Notes under the pieces: generated by a model | Told to the model about the DNA's origin: nothing | Databases searched by the model: none | The model's input: the letters and a program-made list of their open reading frames with translations, nothing else | Assembly: GCF_015840715.1 (NCBI RefSeq) | Contig: NZ_CP060397.1 | Location: 2,066,686 to 2,130,685, forward strand | Source: Synechococcus sp. CBW1004 | GTDB lineage: Bacteria > Cyanobacteriota > Cyanobacteriia > PCC-6307 > Cyanobiaceae | Reading direction: 5' to 3' | DNA: 64,000 bases | Program-made: the position numbers and the translations under genes | Part shown: piece after piece, positions 30,765 through 40,058 of the stretch | Layout: every line of letters starts with the position of its first letter | How positions within the stretch are numbered: position 1 is the stretch's first letter

Positions 30765-31673
30765 TCAGGCCGCCAGGTCCGCGCGAGCCGGCCCCCCATC
30801 TGACCCCTGTCCCGACAGCCCGCCACGCCGAGGCAGGGGCAGGGTGCCGTCCTCGCCGCTGCGAGCGGCCCCCTCCGGTCGCCGCAGCCGCAGCGGGCCG
30901 AACAGGCCGCCCTGCTGTTCCAGCTCCACCGCCCCCTGGGAGCAGAGGAACAGCAGCGCCCAGAAGACCCCGACCCGATCGCCATCGAGTTCCTCCTCGG
31001 CGCCGGCTTCGCGCACGGATGTGTGCCAGGCGATGACCAGATCCTCGAAGCCCAGCCAGTCGCCGCCAGCTTCGATGCCCTGCTGCAGGAAGCGCCCCAG
31101 GGCGGCGGTGGTCTCCGGCAGCTTCTCCCGGTGGGCCAGAGCGGCCACCTGGGCGATCGCGGCGCGATCGCTGTAACGCTTCGGGCGATGGCGGCCGCGG
31201 CTCCTGCCCTCATCCTGTTCGAGCCGTTCGGCGATGTCCTCCAGCTGGCGGATCAATTCGCCGAGGGTGACCGGCCGCTGCAGCGGCGGCGGTGCCACCG
31301 GGCGGCGGATCAGGTGCCGTTCGGGCCGCGCCGGCAGCACGATCCCCCCGGGTTCCTCCGACCAGCCGTCGTCCTCAGGGCCGCACTCCTCCTCCAGCAG
31401 GGGAGCCGGCGGGAAGGTGGAGGCCTCGAGCACCTCCGCCTTCAGGCCCACCAGCACTGAGGCCGCCAGGAAGGCTTCGCTGCTCTCGGCCAGATCCAGC
31501 TCGTAGCTGCCCCCCACGCCGGCCGCCAGCCGCGGCAGCTCCAGGCGCGAACGCAGCTGATCGAGAAAGCCATCGATCACGGCGATCACATCCACATCCC
31601 AGGGATCGATGTCGCCACGCTCTGCCGCATCCTGCAGCAGGCGGATGGCGGCGCGCGCGCCGGTCTCACTCAC
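30765..31673 (-). CDS. scpA: Segregation and condensation protein A
   Basis: A 302-residue kleisin, bridging Smc heads with ScpB. AAERGDIDPWDVDVIAVIDG and ELDLAESSEAFLAASVLVGL form the N-terminal Smc-binding region; the C-terminal winged helix contains VGVFWALLFLCSQGAVELEQ. A long acidic Pro-rich middle (EECGPEDDGWSEEP) separates them, and an extra Arg/Gly-rich tail follows. It lies immediately downstream of the sugar-pyrophosphorylase start (33 bases) on the same strand, so the two may be co-transcribed. Confidence 0.9.
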   Translation of the reverse strand: MSETGARAAIRLLQDAAERGDIDPWDVDVIAVIDGFLDQLRSRLELPRLAAGVGGSYELDLAESSEAFLAASVLVGLKAEVLEASTFPPAPLLEEECGPEDDGWSEEPGGIVLPARPERHLIRRPVAPPPLQRPVTLGELIRQLEDIAERLEQDEGRSRGRHRPKRYSDRAAIAQVAALAHREKLPETTAALGRFLQQGIEAGGDWLGFEDLVIAWHTSVREAGAEEELDGDRVGVFWALLFLCSQGAVELEQQGGLFGPLRLRRPEGAARSGEDGTLPLPRRGGLSGQGSDGGPARADLAA

Positions 31674-32310: not shown

Positions 32311-33909
32311 TCAGGACAGCGATGGAGCCTGCAGGAGCGGCGGTGGCACCAGACTCATCACCCCGGCTGCTCGCAAAGGTCTGGGCGGTTCGCCCATGGC
32401 GGTCAGAGCGCTTTCTTCGCGTGCCACCAGGGTTTCGATCGAGGCCCGGTAGGTGTCGGTCATGATCCTGGGGTAGAGGCCGATTCCGACGATCGGCACC
32501 AGCAGGCAGGAGATCACATAGATCTCACGCGGCTCGGCATCGACCAGATGGGTGTGGGAGGCGAGCTCGCTGTTCTCCTTGCCGAAGAAGATCTCACGCA
32601 GCATCGAGAGAAGGTAGATCGGCGTCAGGATCACCCCCACTGCGGCCAGCACCGCCATGACGATGCGGAAGCTGAGGCTGTAGGCCTCACTGGTGGCGAA
32701 GCCGACGAACACCATCAGCTCACTGACGAATCCACTCATCCCGGGCAGGGCCAGAGACGCGAGTGAGCAGACCGTCCAGAGGGCGAACATCTTGCGCATC
32801 TTCTGGCCTACGCCGCCCATCTCATCGAGCTGCAATGTATGGGTGCGGTCGTAGGTGGCGCCCACCAGGAAGAAGAGGGAGGCGCCGATCAGGCCGTGGC
32901 TCACCATCTGCAGCATCGCGCCGCTGGTGCCCAGGGCGCTGAAGCTGCCGATGCCGATCAACACAAAGCCCATGTGGCTGATCGAGCTGTAGGCGATCTT
33001 GCGCTTGAGATTGCGCTGCGCAAACGAGGTGAGCGCCGCATAGATGATGTTCACCACCCCCAGCACCACCAGCAGCGGCGCGAACCGGGCATGGGCATCG
33101 GGCAGCAGCTGCACGTTGAAGCGCAGCAATGCGTAGCCGCCCATCTTGAGCAGAATCCCGGCAAGGAGCATGTGCACCGGCGCCGTCGCTTCGCCGTGCG
33201 CATCGGGCAGCCAGGTATGCAGCGGCACAATCGGCAGTTTCACGCCGAAGGCGATCAGCAGGGCCGCATAACACAACACCTGGAAGCCGACGCCGAATTC
33301 GCGGCTGGCCAAGACCGTGTATTCGAAGCTGGGAGCTCCTCCACCGAAGAAGCCCATCGCCAGGGCTGCCAGCAGAATGAAGAGCGAACTGCCTGCGGTG
33401 TAAAGGATGAACTTGGTGGCCGCATATTGACGTTTCTTGCCGCCCCAGATCGCTAGCAGCAGATAAACCGGAATCAGCTCCAGCTCCCAGGCCAGGAAGA
33501 ACAGCAGCATGTCCTGCACCGCGAAGACGGCGATCTGGCCGCCATCCATGGCCAGCAGCAGGAAATAGAACAGCTTCGGCTTGAAGGTCACCGGCCAGGC
33601 GGCCAGGCAGGCCAGGGCTGTGATGAAGCTGGTGAGCAGGATTAGCGGCATGGAGATGCCATCGGCTCCAACCGACCAGGCCAGGCCCAGGTCCGGCAGC
33701 CACTGCACCCGCTCCACCAGCTGCAGGCCCGGTTCAGAGGGGTCGTACCCGTTGAGGTATCCCCCCACCGTCAGCAGGAAGGTGGTCAGCGACACCCCCA
33801 GGGCGTACCAACGCACCCGCTTGCCGTCTCCGGCGTCGGGCACAAAGGGGATCAGCAGGGAGGCCGCGATCGGGAACAGGATCGAGGCGCTCAGCCAGGG
33901 GAAGGCCAC
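32311..33909 (-). CDS. ndhD: NDH-1 subunit D (NuoM homologue)
   Basis: A 532-residue proton-pumping antiporter-like subunit with about 14 helices. Visible: [51 protein letters not shown] and [19 protein letters not shown] with the key Lys/His. The C-terminus ends with a Pro-rich tail. The ndhD1 versus ndhD2 type cannot be set with certainty; similarity to the ndhF1-associated type is plausible because ndhF lies 4 kb away. Start at 33909. Confidence 0.95.
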
Positions 33910-33999
33910 AGGCCGGGTCAGGCGTCTGGCTCGGAGTGTAGAAATCTCAGCCTGGAGATCTCAGTGCGGGTGGCGGTTGTCACACAAGCTGTCGGGACT

Positions 34000-34078
34000 G
34001 GCGCCGCCGGGCTGATCCGTCCGGCCGTCGCGCTCGCGGGCGAGCGCAGCGGCCTCCCGGAGTCAGCCCGGCGGCGCC
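34000..34078. repeat. 16-bp perfect inverted repeat with inner hairpin
   Basis: GGCGCCGCCGGGCTGA at 34000-34015 is exactly complementary to 34063-34078. Within the intervening 47 bases an 8-bp palindromic hairpin (GCGCTCGC / GCGAGCGC, 34030-34047) forms a second stem. Together they can fold as a cruciform or a structured RNA. Confidence 0.85.
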
Positions 34079-34103
34079 CCCTGGCGTTGGCCGGGGTTCG
34101 GGC

Positions 34104-34252
34104 GGCAGGTTGCGGGACCTGCCGAGCGAGACCTCGCGGCGGGGGCGAAGGCAGATTCAGGCCCAGGGGGGGCGAGCGGCCGTTGCCCCGCGTTGCGGGG
34201 CTCGGCCTTGCAGTGCCGGGGCTGGAGGCCGTGGCCCCCGCTTTGGGGGGCC
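34104..34252. repeat. Three short perfect hairpins
   Basis: Stem 1 GGCAGGT / ACCTGCC (34104-34123); stem 2 GCCCCGC / GCGGGGC with a 3-base loop (34185-34201); stem 3 GGCCCCC / GGGGGCC (34233-34252). Each is 7 bp and perfect. No T-run follows, so they are not simple intrinsic terminators. Confidence 0.7.
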
Positions 34253-34381
34253 CGGCCTGGCGGTTCAGGGGCTTGGGTGGTGACGGGGTTTGGGGTGCGG
34301 GGCGACAGCATCTGCGGCGGTGCTCGCTCGTGCCCCGCTCAACCACTGACCGTCAACGACGTCGGAGTCGGACGTTCAGGG

Positions 34382-34506
34382 GACTTGATGACCCATGTGG
34401 CTCCGCAGCTCAGGCACGGGCAACACAACCTGCCTTCCCACATGGGATCCCTGCCTTCTGGCTCAGGCAGGGGCGGCACCTGTGGAGTGTTGCGGGTCAT
34501 CAAGTC
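34382..34506. repeat. Nested inverted repeats, possible three-way junction
   Basis: An outer 13-bp arm GACTTGATGACCC (34382-34394) pairs with GGGTCATCAAGTC (34494-34506). Inside are ATGTGG / CCACAT (34395-34400 with 34438-34443, extendable to 9 bp) and CCCTGCCT / AGGCAGGG (34449-34456 with 34465-34472, 8-base loop). The outer arm overlaps the stop codon of the flavodoxin-like gene, so on the minus strand this is the immediate 3' end of that transcript. Confidence 0.8.
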
Positions 34507-35296
34507 AGGGGATGGTTCGGAACAGGGCCCGCAGCTCGGGCTCCGGTCGGGTCAGCTCCGCGGCCAGGGTGCCCAGTCCGGGGCGTTCGGCGCTCGCCAG
34601 TCGGTTGACCTTGGCGCACACCGTCGGGGCATGGGGGCCAAGGGCCTCGGTTGACCGGGGGAAACGCCGGAAATAGGCCAGATCCACGCCGAGGCGATCG
34701 GCCAGGGCGGCCGTCCGCGACGGATCCTCGCCGGCGTGGGCCTGCAGCAGCAGCTCCCGGGCGTACTGGCCCATGGACCAGCAGTCCAGATCCGTGAACT
34801 GACCCGGTGCCGGCTCCAGTCGCTCGTCGGTGCTGAACACCATCAGCCGTTGAGCTGCCGTGAAGGCCAGGGCTCCCTGCCCCATCAGCGAGCGGAGGCT
34901 GTCGAGCACCACCATTTCGCCGCCGGTGTGGGCGCCGCCGGCGGTGGCGAAGGCGGTGGCACGCACCCCCTGCAGGGACACGTTGCCGCCCAGCTCGAAC
35001 AGACGGCGCAACGGCGGCGCCGAACCCTGACTCCAGGTCGAGCCGCCCACCACCAGCACCCGCGGTTGCCCCTGAAGCAAGGCGGCCGCCTCCGGTCGGC
35101 CGGCCTGGGCCGACAGCGCCCTGAGGCTGATCCGGACCGGCAGGTGATACTCCCGCGCGAGACGGTGCAGTTCCAGGGCGATCCCCAGTCCGGCTCTGGT
35201 GGCATCGAAGCGGCCGGTGTACGGAGAGGGCGCCGCCAGCACAAAGCGCACCTCCGGAGGCGGTGTCTGGACGACGGGCGGGTGAAGAATCGGCAT
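34505..35296 (-). CDS. Flavodoxin-fold protein (WrbA-like), unassigned
   Basis: A 263-residue protein. A block ending PRVLVVGGSTWSQG, then PPLRRLFELGG, AFATAGGAHTGGEMVVLDSL and SMGQYARELLLQA follows the strand-helix order of NAD(P)H:quinone oxidoreductase/WrbA flavodoxins, where these segments bind FMN. The N-terminal part is instead a proline-rich leader then FVLAAPSPYTGRFDATRAG. The extra C-terminal helix region (SRTAALADRLGVDLAYFR) is not typical of WrbA. FMN binding is inferred by eye. It is divergent from the Kir gene across 366 bases. Confidence 0.72.
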   Translation of the reverse strand: MPILHPPVVQTPPPEVRFVLAAPSPYTGRFDATRAGLGIALELHRLAREYHLPVRISLRALSAQAGRPEAAALLQGQPRVLVVGGSTWSQGSAPPLRRLFELGGNVSLQGVRATAFATAGGAHTGGEMVVLDSLRSLMGQGALAFTAAQRLMVFSTDERLEPAPGQFTDLDCWSMGQYARELLLQAHAGEDPSRTAALADRLGVDLAYFRRFPRSTEALGPHAPTVCAKVNRLASAERPGLGTLAAELTRPEPELRALFRTIP

Positions 35297-35662
35297 CCGA
35301 ACGCAAAGCCGAAGCGAAGCTTGCGCTGCGAGCAGCGGGTTCAGTCTGAATCAGAATCAGCCTGACGGACTGCCGGGGTGAGGTGAACGTCTGACAGGCC
35401 GAACTGCCATGGATCTTCGTCTGAGGAGGAGGCTGGCATCACCGATGCCTGCAATGCAGTTGGCGCTGCAGTCCTGCGGATTCGTGGACCGAATGGCTTT
35501 GTCCTGGTCCCGTCGGTCACGCCTGTTCCCCCTCGGCCACCTGTGGAGGCTCGTCCCTGTCGGTTGATCCAGCTTGTTCGCCGCTTCCTTGCGGGGCTGT
35601 CTGACCACCCAACACGCAGGCCCCGCTTCCTGTGGGCCGCAGTCGATCAACCTGGAGCACGA
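35297..35662. other. Divergent intergenic region with leader hairpin
   Basis: Lies between the starts of the flavodoxin-like and Kir-like genes and must hold both promoters. No convincing -35/-10 pair seen. Within the Kir leader GCGGGGC (35591-35597) pairs with GCCCCGC (35620-35626); the flanks repeat the octamer CGCTTCCT directly. GGAG at 35654-35657 is a plausible ribosome site for the Kir ATG. No gene seen. Confidence 0.6.
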
Positions 35663-36508
35663 ATGTTCAACCTGTCGGCACGTGGCATCCGCCACGATCA
35701 TCAGCACACGCCCTGGTACGAGCTCTGGCGTCAGCCCCTGGCGGCGCTGATCAGGATGCCGTGGTGGCTGTTTTTCCCGGTGATGTTCCTGGTTTATCTG
35801 GGAGTCATTCTTGCTGTTGCGGTTCTTCTCAGTTTCGATCGGCGTCATCTGCTTGGTGATGCGCCGATGGGCCTCCCCAAGCCGCTCGTGTTTGCGATGG
35901 AAAGCTTCTTCGCCAATGGCTTCAGCAGCGTCACGCCGGATTCGCTGTTCACCTATGCGGTGGGCGTGTTGAGCCTGATCGCCGGCTTGATCACGCTGTC
36001 GACGTTGACGGCCATTGTGTTTGCGCGGCTGAGCAGCAACGAGGCCCCGTTGCGCTTCAGCCGACACCTGTGCATCAGCTCCATGGATCACGGGCACCTG
36101 TTCTGCCGCTTTGTGACCGCAGATCCTGGGCAATGGTTGAATGTGAGCTATGGTTTATCACTGATCTATGATGATCAGATTCAAGCGGGAGTCTGGCAGC
36201 GACGGATCGTTGCCCTGGAGCTCCTCAACACTGCCACGCCCCAGCTCAGTCAGACCGCCACCCTCACGCATCCCCTCACGGCGTCAAGCCCGGTTGTTCG
36301 CCTGGGGCTCGACGAGCTGGCCAGGCGCCATGCGGTGATCATGCCGCTGGTGGAGGGAGTCGATGAGAGCACCGGTTCCGGCTTGCTTCAGACCCATCTG
36401 TATCCGATCGGCAGCATCCAGGTGGGCCGCCATTTCGCCGATCTGGTCACGACTGACCGCGCGGGCCATCGCAGGATTGAGCTTCGCCATCTCGACAAGT
36501 TGCGCTAG
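35663..36508 (+). CDS. Inward-rectifier (Kir) potassium channel homologue with altered filter
   Basis: A 281-residue protein with the Kir layout: cytoplasmic N-terminus, first helix (MPWWLFFPVMFLVYLGVILA), pore helix, second helix (VLSLIAGLITLSTLTAIVFA), then the cytoplasmic beta-sandwich domain starting at RFSRHLCIS, with SSPVVRLGLDELARRHAVI and VEGVDESTGSGLLQTHLYPI. The filter position reads SFFANGFSSVTP where KirBac has TLATVGYGDMHP, so TVGYG becomes ANGFS. Potassium selectivity is therefore doubtful. Start ATG 35663, preceded by GGAG. Base usage is somewhat less GC-rich than its neighbours. Confidence 0.86.
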   Translation: MFNLSARGIRHDHQHTPWYELWRQPLAALIRMPWWLFFPVMFLVYLGVILAVAVLLSFDRRHLLGDAPMGLPKPLVFAMESFFANGFSSVTPDSLFTYAVGVLSLIAGLITLSTLTAIVFARLSSNEAPLRFSRHLCISSMDHGHLFCRFVTADPGQWLNVSYGLSLIYDDQIQAGVWQRRIVALELLNTATPQLSQTATLTHPLTASSPVVRLGLDELARRHAVIMPLVEGVDESTGSGLLQTHLYPIGSIQVGRHFADLVTTDRAGHRRIELRHLDKLR

Positions 36509-36681
36509 CGCTCAGCGGTGCGGGTGAGGGAGGCCATGCCGGCCTGCCTTACGGAGTCGCTGCGTTCCGGATGACAGGAGGGTGCATGCTCAAAGCTGTT
36601 GGGGCTCATCCCGTGGCCGATGGGTTCTTGTCGGCGGGGCGAGTGCGCTTGCAGGGCTGGGTTGAGGCGGCGTGGATGGGC

Positions 36682-37248
36682 TCAGACTTTTTCACTGGCC
36701 GGTGGCATGGTGAGCAGCAGCTCCTCGATCCTGTGGTGCAGGGATTCCAGCGGTGGGTCCTGCTGATCGGGGCCGAATGCCCGGATCAGCTGCGGTCCAC
36801 TGACATCGATCACCCAGTCACTGGGGATGCCGGCATTCCTGTAGAGGTGCCCTTTGGTCTGCAGATCAAAGGCGAGAGAGCTGTCCGACACTTCGATCAC
36901 CAGCACGGTGTCGGGGGCTTCTGGATGGGCGCTGAGATAGCCATGGCTGCGTTGCCGCACCAGGGCCAGGTCTGGCTCGGGTTCATCGCGCTCACCCAGA
37001 CAAAGCGGTGATTCCACCCACAGTTCCCAGGGACAGTCGGTCCGGGCCGCCAGCCAGAGCGTGATCAGCTGCGTCACCCGGTTCACCAGGACGCTGTGAC
37101 GCGTTCCCTTGGCGAGCACCGTCAGCACCTCGCCTGCGATGAGCTCCAGCCGCTGTTCCGGCACGGCCTCACAGAGCCGATGGAACTGCTCCACGGTGAA
37201 GCGGGCATGGGGCGCCTGCGGATCGGACGGGGAGGTGAGCCGTGTCAT
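36682..37248 (-). CDS. Uma2 family (DUF820) restriction-endonuclease-fold protein
   Basis: A 188-residue protein with the PD-(D/E)XK-like Uma2 pattern: FTVEQFHRLCEAVPEQRLEL, GEVLTVLAKGTRHSVLVNRV, PEPDLALVRQ, TVLVIEVSDSSLAFD, LQTKGHLYRNAGIPSDWVID. The conserved D, E and K residues are present. Uma2 proteins are abundant in cyanobacteria and of unsettled function. A direct repeat region lies upstream. Confidence 0.9.
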   Translation of the reverse strand: MTRLTSPSDPQAPHARFTVEQFHRLCEAVPEQRLELIAGEVLTVLAKGTRHSVLVNRVTQLITLWLAARTDCPWELWVESPLCLGERDEPEPDLALVRQRSHGYLSAHPEAPDTVLVIEVSDSSLAFDLQTKGHLYRNAGIPSDWVIDVSGPQLIRAFGPDQQDPPLESLHHRIEELLLTMPPASEKV

Positions 37249-37375
37249 CCGCCGGGCCCTGAAGGGAGGGTCTGAGGTGAGGAAGCCTGGCCCGACCAGA
37301 CGGATCGAAGCCCGGAGGCGCCCTCCGCCTCACCAGAAGGTTGCTTGAACCCCGAAGCGGTCATTGACCAGTCAT

Positions 37376-37507
37376 CGCCACCGAATCTCGGTGGAGGCGC
37401 AGCCATCCCCTCGTTTCCACCCCCAGGCGGGGCGGACGGAAGCCGTGCGGAGAGGCCTGGAGCGGGAGGCGTAGGCGGCCTGCGTTCCTCAGGAACGCCA
37501 GCCGCCG
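37376..37507 (+). repeat. 132-bp direct repeat, copy 1
   Basis: Begins with a hairpin CCACCGA-ATC-TCGGTGG and ends with the compound hairpin GGCGGC-CT-GCGTTCC-TCA-GGAACGC-CA-GCCGCC. It differs from copy 2 at 6 of 132 positions; three differences fall in the two hairpin loops (two in the ATC/GTT loop, one in the TCA/GCA loop), none in their stems. The central 60 bases, including TCGTTTCCACCCCCAGGCGG, are identical. Confidence 0.92.
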
Positions 37508-37657
37508 TAGGAGTGCTCTGGGCTCGACCCGCTGGTGCTGTGAGCCGTGCTGCCGGCTGGATCCGCGCGTTGGGGAAGATGAGCGTCGCTGCTGCCGTCC
37601 AGCCCAGCCGCTCGGCGACTGGGGCCACTGGCGGCGCAGGCATTCAGGTCAAGTGAA

Positions 37658-37789
37658 CGCCACCGAGTTTCGGTGGGGGCGAAGCCATCCCCTCGTTTCC
37701 ACCCCCAGGCGGGGCGGACGGAAGCCGTGCGGAGAGGCCTGGAGCGGGAGCCGTAGGCGGCCTGCGTTCCGCAGGAACGCCAGCCGCCG
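37658..37789 (+). repeat. 132-bp direct repeat, copy 2, with extra 3' arm
   Basis: About 95% identical to copy 1, offset by 282 bases. The loop sequences change (GTT for ATC, GCA for TCA) while both stems stay perfect. Unlike copy 1, it is followed by CCCGCTCCAGGCC (37796-37808), exactly complementary to GGCCTGGAGCGGG inside the repeat (37736-37748), so copy 2 can fold into a longer nested hairpin ending just before ndhF. Confidence 0.92.
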
Positions 37790-37820
37790 GAGGCCCCCGC
37801 TCCAGGCCCCGCCGGCAGCC

Positions 37821-39830
37821 TCAGCCCAGAACGCCGAACAGGGCCACCAGGGCGATCACGCCGCCGAACACGATCAGGGCATAGAACTGCACCCGGCCGG
37901 TCTCGAAGTACTTGAGGCCCTCGCCGCTGCCGAGGGTGAGCAGGCCGGTGAGGTTCACGACGCCGTCGACCACCTTGGAGTCGACATCGAGCACCTGACG
38001 GGCGATGCGGCGGCTGCCCTGCACGAACAGCTTGTCGTTGATCGCATCGAGATACCACTTGTTGGCCAGGAAGCGGTTGATCGCCGGGAAACGGCCCGCC
38101 ACCTCGGAGGCGAGGTCGATGCGGTGCAGAAGGTAAGCGAGCACTGCCACCGTGATCCCCACCAGAGAGATCGCCACAGAGGCGCCGGCCAGGGGCAGAA
38201 ATTCACTCCAGGAGAAGTGCTCCGCCATCTCGGTGGCTTCGTGGGGATCGATCAGGAAAGCGAAGCGGCTGTTCCAGGGGGTGCCCAGCAGGCCGATCAG
38301 CACCGAAGGCACGGCCAGCACCACCAGCGGCGTGGTCATCGACCAGCTGGATTCGTGCGGATGCTCGGCGTGGTGGTGCTCATGGCTCTCCTCCTCGGAG
38401 CCGGAACGGCCGGCCGCGGCCAGGAGCTGGGCCGCCATCGCCTTGTCATTGCCGCGGAAGTCCCCCTCGAACGTGAGGAAGTAGAGGCGGAACATGTAGA
38501 AGGCCGTCATCCCGGCGGTGACGAAGCCCATGCCCCACAGGAGGGGATAGGTGTTGAAGGCCTGGCCGAGGATCTCGTCCTTGCTCCAGAAGCCGGCCAG
38601 CGGCGGGATGCCGGCGATGGCGATGCAGCCGATCAGGAAGGTGATCGAGGTGATCGGCATCCAGCGGCGCAGACCGCCCATCAGACGCATGTCCTGGGCC
38701 AGCGCCGGTTCGTGGCCCACCACCTCCTCCATGGCGTGGATGACCGAGCCGGAACCGAGGAAGAGCATCGCCTTGAAGAAGGCGTGGGTGACGAGGTGGA
38801 ACATGCCGGCCACCGGGGCGCCGCAGCCCATCGCCAGCATCATGTACCCGAGCTGGCTGACGGTGCTGTAGGCCAGGCCCTTCTTGAGGTCCATCTGGGT
38901 GAGCGCGATCGAGGCTCCCAGGAATAGGGTGATCGTGCCGATCACTGCGATCGTGGTCTGCACCACGGAGAAGGGCTCGTACACCGGCTGCAGGCGCGCC
39001 ACCAGGAAGACGCCGGCGGCCACCATCGTGGCGGCGTGGATCAGGGCCGAGATCGGTGTGGGGCCCTCCATGGCGTCGGGCAGCCACACGTGCAGTGGGA
39101 ACTGGGCTGATTTCGCCATCGGGCCCATGAACACCAGCAGGCACAGCAGCACGGCGACACCGTTGCTGAGGGTTCCTCCGGCCACGGCATCGCTCAGGCG
39201 TGCGCCGATCTCCTCGAAGCCGAAGCTGCCGGTGGCCCAGAACAGGCCCAGGATCCCCAGCAGCAGGCCGAAGTCACCGACCCGGTTGACCACGAAGGCC
39301 TTCTGGGCTGCGTGGGCGGCGCCGTCGCGGTCGTACCAGAAGCCCACCAGCAGGTAGGAGCACATGCCCACCAGCTCCCAGAAGACGTAGATCTCGAGAA
39401 GATTCGGCGAGATGATCAGCCCCAGCATCGAACTGCTGAACAGGGCCAGATAGGTGAAGAAGCGCACATAGCCCTTGTCGTGGGCCATGTAGCCATGGGA
39501 ATAGACCATCACCAGCAGGGCGATGGTGGTGACCAGCGAGAGCATCACCGCGCCGAGGGCATCCACACGGAAGCCCATCGGCAGGTTGAACGTGCCGGCG
39601 CTGGCCCAGTTGAACAGCACCTCGGTCATGCCCGCTCCGGCGATCTGCTCAGCGAGCACTGCGTAGCTGAGAACCGCCGAGGCGCCGACGCAGCTGATCA
39701 GCAGCAGCGCGACGGGGCGACGCAGACGGTTGACCGTGCGGTTGAAGCTGATCAGCCCCAGGCCGGAGATGCAGGCTCCCAGAAGGGGGAGCACCGGAAT
39801 CAACCAGGCAAGTTCGGCGGCGGCGGGCAT
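37821..39830 (-). CDS. ndhF: NDH-1 subunit F (NuoL homologue)
   Basis: A 669-residue large antiporter-like subunit with the lateral helix. Signatures: WELVGMCSYLLVGFWYDRD, FPLHVWLPDAMEGPTPISAL, DLKKGLAYSTVSQLGYMMLA and LAGFWSKDEIL. A His/Glu-rich loop (EEESHEHHHAEHPHESSW) precedes the C-terminal helices. The ATG at 39830 (MPAAAELAWLIP) starts the first helix; an upstream in-frame start would add an Arg/Pro-rich leader and is less likely. Downstream is the repeat-rich intergenic tract. Confidence 0.96.
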   Translation of the reverse strand: MPAAAELAWLIPVLPLLGACISGLGLISFNRTVNRLRRPVALLLISCVGASAVLSYAVLAEQIAGAGMTEVLFNWASAGTFNLPMGFRVDALGAVMLSLVTTIALLVMVYSHGYMAHDKGYVRFFTYLALFSSSMLGLIISPNLLEIYVFWELVGMCSYLLVGFWYDRDGAAHAAQKAFVVNRVGDFGLLLGILGLFWATGSFGFEEIGARLSDAVAGGTLSNGVAVLLCLLVFMGPMAKSAQFPLHVWLPDAMEGPTPISALIHAATMVAAGVFLVARLQPVYEPFSVVQTTIAVIGTITLFLGASIALTQMDLKKGLAYSTVSQLGYMMLAMGCGAPVAGMFHLVTHAFFKAMLFLGSGSVIHAMEEVVGHEPALAQDMRLMGGLRRWMPITSITFLIGCIAIAGIPPLAGFWSKDEILGQAFNTYPLLWGMGFVTAGMTAFYMFRLYFLTFEGDFRGNDKAMAAQLLAAAGRSGSEEESHEHHHAEHPHESSWSMTTPLVVLAVPSVLIGLLGTPWNSRFAFLIDPHEATEMAEHFSWSEFLPLAGASVAISLVGITVAVLAYLLHRIDLASEVAGRFPAINRFLANKWYLDAINDKLFVQGSRRIARQVLDVDSKVVDGVVNLTGLLTLGSGEGLKYFETGRVQFYALIVFGGVIALVALFGVLG

Positions 39831-40058
39831 CCGGCGAGGCTCCCTTGGGGGCGGTTCCGGCCGAGTGTAGGCAGCTCTCCCGCCGTGCTTGGTCGCCGGT
39901 GTTCGACCAGGGATCACCGGGGCCTGTCGCCGATGTCCTGGCGATGGCCCGGCGCCCTCCTCACCCGGGTTCCAGCTCGCGGGCGATGGGAGACCTTCAG
40001 GCGAGGCCGGCGGCGGCGGAGGCGAGGCCCGAGACCGCGTCGTTCAGGACGATGGTTC

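Follow-up and report, generated by a model that had tools for sequence, protein, structure and literature searches.

The stretch of DNA analysed here, referred to as the window, comprises 64,000 nucleotides of Synechococcus sp. CBW1004, whose chromosome is a single contig of 3.67 Mb. Within the window, the co-oriented genes ndhF1 and ndhD1 are separated by an interval of 3.9 kb, which carries a giant hairpin near each end (A next to ndhF and B at the far end), 3.6 kb of inserted genes between the two, and a pair of direct repeats. The features of this region are, in coordinates of the window:

32311-33909, minus strand: ndhD1, NAD(P)H-quinone oxidoreductase subunit 4
33934-33987, minus strand: block preceding ndhD (TGTGTGACAAC ... 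TTCTACACTC), conserved in the relatives examined
34000-34078, minus strand: hairpin B, the second giant hairpin, immediately upstream of the conserved block at 33934-33987
34505-35296, minus strand: inserted open reading frame with no Pfam or NCBIfam match
35543-36508, plus strand: inserted gene with a weak K+-channel C-terminal match
36682-37248, minus strand: inserted Uma2 family gene
37370-37511: repeat copy 1 (142 nt), flanked by the Uma2-family gene and hairpin A
37652-37793: repeat copy 2 (142 nt), which forms part of hairpin A
37719-37822, minus strand: hairpin A, giant and nested, which starts inside the ndhF stop codon and continues into the ndhF 3' UTR
37796-37808: third arm of hairpin A, CCCGCTCCAGGCC, pairing over 13 bp with 37736-37748
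37821-39917, minus strand: ndhF1, NAD(P)H-quinone oxidoreductase subunit 5

The two repeat copies lie between ndhF1 and the Uma2-family gene, both of which are on the minus strand. They are in direct orientation, 282 nt apart from start to start, and are identical at 133 of 142 positions (nine differences). An earlier note on this DNA had described two direct repeats differing at 6 of 132 positions, which is exact in the 132-nt frame; the unit is here extended to 142 nt. There is no further homology in the flanks or the spacer, and for this reason a simple tandem duplication with a common spacer was rejected. The copies are 94% identical, compared with about 85-86% DNA identity between the ndhF of the window and that of its closest relatives; the repeat pair is therefore probably a fairly recent local duplication. 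Copy 1 probably lacks a function of its own, and the 142-nt unit alone folds with ordinary z-scores of -1.0 to -2.6.

Do the differences between the copies reveal selection on structure? In the 132-nt frame, two of the six differences fall in loop 1 (copy 1/copy 2: 37385 A/G and 37387 C/T) and one in loop 2 (37489 T/G); the other three (37395, 37400, and 37469) lie outside both hairpins, and none is found in the 40 nt of the stems. Under random placement, at least three of six differences would fall in the six loop bases with P = 0.001, which is a nominal value for a test picked post hoc. With P = 0.11 for stems free of any difference, the sparing of the stems is not significant by itself. The description in the earlier note, loops that vary while stems stay perfect, is accurate as a count, but the comparison of two copies is too weak to carry its claim of selection.

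The nested structure of copy 2 is on firmer ground. As had been noted, the third arm CCCGCTCCAGGCC is perfectly complementary to GGCCTGGAGCGGG (37736-37748) over 13 bp, and relative to dinucleotide-shuffled sequences the nested hairpin has a z-score of -6.5 to -8.2. In copy 1, the fold offers an appealing third arm with wobble pairs, which was rejected because the duplex does not differ significantly from shuffled sequences (P = 0.10). The placement of the element right after the ndhF stop was also correct and can be refined: the stop codon occupies 37821-37823 on the minus strand, which is the strand of the ndhF mRNA, and in this message it leads directly into the copy-2 hairpin, from 37822 down to 37719. 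The last codons of ndhF take part weakly in the pairing.

How unusual are these hairpins in their own genome? Among 177 gene 3' ends sampled within the genome of the window (those with 90 nt of free space, with gene calls from a simple hexamer model), that of ndhF is the most extreme, with a z-score of -8.2; the runner-up has -5.0. A fold scan in 100-nt windows covered 464 kb of the genome, made up of the 64-kb window and 20 further stretches, and its two most stable segments are hairpin A and 34001-34100, which is hairpin B. A genome-wide class of giant hairpins behind genes was rejected, given that none besides A and B is found in the 464-kb sample. The two hairpins have no sequence similarity, and the idea that they are copies of each other was likewise rejected. 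The conserved block that separates hairpin B from ndhD is a possible promoter or control region for ndhD. A third very stable segment, 34161-34260 (-73 kcal/mol), adjoins hairpin B and contains two 28-nt direct repeats that are 75% alike (34183-34210 and 34233-34260).

Relatives were picked by ndhF similarity and carry the names Cyanobium, Synechococcus, and Vulcanococcus. In many of them, ndhD begins 85-135 nt past the ndhF stop and there is no such hairpin; other relatives have gaps of 180-650 nt, or of 1.3-3.1 kb holding inserted genes. The three genes inserted between A and B in the window (34505-37248) are missing from the interval in relatives. Palindromes were ranked over whole loci of 4.7-14 kb, using the 74 in which one contig carries both genes. 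Among the 35 Cyanobiaceae loci whose ndhF-ndhD1 gap measures 180 nt or more, 21 have the strongest palindrome of the locus inside this gap, compared with 1 of 39 loci with a shorter gap; longer gaps contain more windows, and the gap is mostly a small share of the locus. A ranking by folding energy is biased towards GC-rich DNA, for which the within-locus ranks and, in the genome of the window, the shuffles control in part.

The hairpins recur at two sites, A at the ndhF stop and B approximately 165-230 nt before ndhD, and many freshwater relatives have equally strong hairpins, of other sequence, at one or both of these sites. Both are present in L178, L158, L146, L129, L182, L135, L140, and L171, and the B hairpin is the top palindrome in the sampled stretches of genomes G029 (187 kb) and G030 (~114 kb). 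Hairpin A of the window is assigned to the A class by position and form, its sequence being unlike that of the other A hairpins. The comparison with relatives supports a hairpin that would be either maintained or recurrently made at the position of the ndhF end.

Covariation is strong for B and weaker for A. In the B hairpins of nine strains, 94% of cells are paired and 17 of 31 pairs are altered on both sides, while in slid controls, with the partner shifted by 1-3 columns, pairing falls to 40-48%. For A, 5 of 19 pairs are altered on both sides, in four sequences only. Both counts come from structures derived from the very sequences counted and are inflated by related rows, and template switching can likewise yield matched arms. 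In L135, L140, L148, L171, L182, and L129, a long palindrome joins the 3' UTR to the final codons of ndhF, stop codon included; the end codons differ (ggttcgctgggc, ggctcgctgggc, and ggggcgctgggg) and each version is matched on the downstream arm. The covariation that the earlier note had proposed to check was thus looked at in the hairpins of relatives, as hairpin A of the window has no sequence homologue to align. The note's suggestion of selection on structure now draws on the hairpins at this position in relatives and on their covariation, and no longer on the loops and stems of two copies.

The loop of B reads GGTGAGCGC in the nine aligned hairpins and is GCGTNAGCG-like in others. An 18-nt pattern of this loop has matches in few genomes, mostly at ndhD, and on these grounds the B loop was rejected as the mark of a dispersed family. 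In L094 (G021:C110, ~31159-31176), a giant hairpin with the B-type loop motif AGCGAGCNNNGCGAGCGT stands directly behind another gene, which to judge from its translated end is probably glmS. The B type is not strictly tied to ndhD, because of this one case behind another gene.

The hairpins have been gained or lost often. When the giant gap hairpin is placed on the ndhF protein tree (75 loci, 23 of them with the hairpin, the window included), at least 10 changes are required, and the hairpin is absent from the clade that contains the loci of marine Synechococcus and Prochlorococcus. L169 retains a stump of the A arm found in its relative L135 and looks like a case of hairpin loss. The number of changes and this stump indicate that the feature is dispensable or quickly replaced.

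Do the hairpins resemble known ways of ending a transcript? An intrinsic (Rho-independent) terminator likewise has a GC-rich hairpin directly behind the gene, and such a hairpin is present downstream of ndhF. By contrast, there is no T-run on the minus strand after either hairpin, where the terminator scan lists none, and the stems of A and B are several times the usual length. Because the U-tract is missing after both, neither is an intrinsic terminator in the canonical sense. In this genome, a simple scan for a hairpin plus U-tract in the 464-kb sample found such terminators after 9 of 351 genes and in 7 of 351 upstream controls, which is chance frequency. In Synechococcus elongatus, Rho is absent and most transcript ends are not canonical terminators, while the U-less ends are mostly without strong structure (PMC13289151). 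Hairpins without poly-U, often clustered, have been proposed as terminators on computational grounds (PMC8355165). No earlier description of the ndhF-ndhD hairpins was found in the open-access literature searched.

The reading that we prefer, and regard as evenly balanced between right and wrong, is that A and B together form a boundary between the co-oriented ndhF1 and ndhD1, with A acting as a boundary free of a U-tract or as a hairpin that protects the 3' end. The copy-2 repeat would then be this species' version of hairpin A, the giant GC-rich hairpin at the ndhF1 stop, and A and B would mark the ndhF1/ndhD1 boundary in many freshwater Cyanobiaceae. As RNA, A would fold where the ndhF message ends, and it might shield the 3' end from 3'-5' exonucleases, help to form an end without a U-tract, or both; B might keep upstream transcription away from the control region of ndhD. 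The genome of the window has acquired 3.6 kb of other genes in the space separating A from B, and a single local duplication of part of A has given copy 1.

Several results support this boundary role. Hairpin A, which starts at the stop codon, surpasses all other gene 3' ends in the sample of 177; no other 100-nt segments in 464 kb are as stable as A and B; the two sites recur in relatives, where the top-ranked palindrome lies in the longer gaps (21/35 vs 1/39); pairs covary in B (17/31) and in A (5/19); the end codons and stop of ndhF pair with the 3' UTR, with differing codons matched there; and cyanobacteria are without Rho, most ends in S. elongatus being non-canonical (PMC13289151). Against it count the missing U-tract after A and B, the U-less ends of S. 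elongatus that mostly have no strong structure (PMC13289151), the 10 or more changes on the ndhF tree with many strains that have no hairpin, the lack of sequence similarity between hairpin A of the window and other A hairpins, and the fact that template switching can also create matched arms.

A wider proposal, which we make tentatively, is that freshwater Cyanobiaceae may use a dedicated, U-less, two-hairpin boundary at ndhF1/ndhD1 that sets the 3' end of ndhF and shields ndhD. Several species would build the ndhF stop codon into the stem, pairing would be kept despite the fast turnover of sequence, and the space between the hairpins could accept foreign genes, as in the genome of the window.

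The main rival, which we consider rather unlikely, is that the palindromes are non-adaptive. Template switching at replication would perfect imperfect inverted repeats in a gap whose DNA is easily duplicated, inserted, and lost, and both the hairpins and the 142-nt duplication would be functionless. The fast turnover, with at least 10 changes on the tree and an A-arm stump after an apparent loss in L169, fits such a process, and so does a gap that receives foreign genes too; moreover, the A arms of relatives resemble inverted copies of the ndhF 3' end, and the window holds two neighbouring near-perfect palindromes. It is harder to reconcile with two fixed positions that recur in distant strains, with a B loop motif that is retained while the stems vary, with hairpins that rank first in their locus and are not one among many, and with the lack of any comparable hairpin elsewhere in 464 kb of the genome.

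Alternatively, the hairpins might be U-less terminators proper, with RNA polymerase released after ndhF either by A on its own or by a cluster of A and B. We consider this improbable. The position behind the stop codon and the great stability fit such a role, as do the proposal of hairpin clusters without poly-U as terminators (PMC8355165) and the chance frequency of canonical terminators at the gene ends of this genome. The clusters described there are likewise near the stop codon, sometimes paired in a row, and without poly-U, but they are short and general, whereas the ndhF-ndhD hairpins are giant and specific to one locus, and A and B of the window are 3.6 kb apart. In addition, there is no U-tract, the proposal is computational and contested by the classical two-part model, and other gene ends in the genome have no such hairpin.

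The earlier note had favoured a structured RNA or a REP/MITE-like mobile hairpin and suggested looking for more copies. That search found only the two adjacent copies in the 3.67-Mb genome and no dispersed ones, nothing comparable beyond these in 42 genomes of the genus (its own included), and none in a 400-genome sample of the family or in phage and plasmid records and viral contigs. The exact hairpin pattern has no match among GTDB representatives, a set from which the window's own record is possibly absent. Those weak matches of 27-33 nt in the genus sample that were inspected (L006, L008, and L012) appear to be coding sequence, and the weak hits L050 and L051 lie inside open frames. A MITE similarly has inverted repeats inside a short non-coding unit, but here there are no dispersed copies, no target-site duplication was seen, and an insertion signature is absent: the flanks of the copies are unrelated, and no relative has identical flanks with and without the unit. 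REP elements are GC-rich hairpins that stabilise mRNA 3' ends without terminating (PMC13289151); hairpin A resembles them in its GC-rich stem behind the stop codon, the absent U-tract, and a probable protection of the 3' end. Unlike REP elements, the ndhF-ndhD hairpins are no repeated sequence family, have far longer stems, are tied to one gene junction, and vary in sequence between strains. Although there are two copies with strong hairpins, it is very improbable that the repeat is a mobile element or an independent structured small RNA, given the missing further copies and homologues in the genomes and collections searched, flanks that are not in common, no Rfam score above the gathering threshold, and the ordinary fold of the unit alone.

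In cyanobacteria, Rho is absent and most transcript ends are unlike canonical terminators (PMC13289151). For the question of how such transcripts end, the conserved ndhF-ndhD pair, which repeatedly has extreme, covarying, U-less hairpins at fixed sites, is well suited as a test case: it allows a direct comparison of strains with both hairpins, one, or none.

The hairpins additionally flag the ndhF-ndhD junction as an insertion hotspot. At this junction (33910-37820 in the window; loci L073-L092 and L123-L202), the gap in relatives can be as short as 85 nt or exceed 3 kb, with gene content differing from strain to strain. One contig with such a locus (L130, CALPNT020000160.1) is titled Bifidobacterium breve; the record name looks wrong because the contig encodes a cyanobacterial ndhF, 85% identical to that of the window. 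In L079 (genome G039), part of the ndhF C-terminus is present a second time, approximately 6.6-6.9 kb past the ndhF stop and behind a very long gene. This copy matches residues 602-698 at 78% identity, has a TAG inside the matching part, and looks like the result of an insertion in which the end of ndhF was duplicated.
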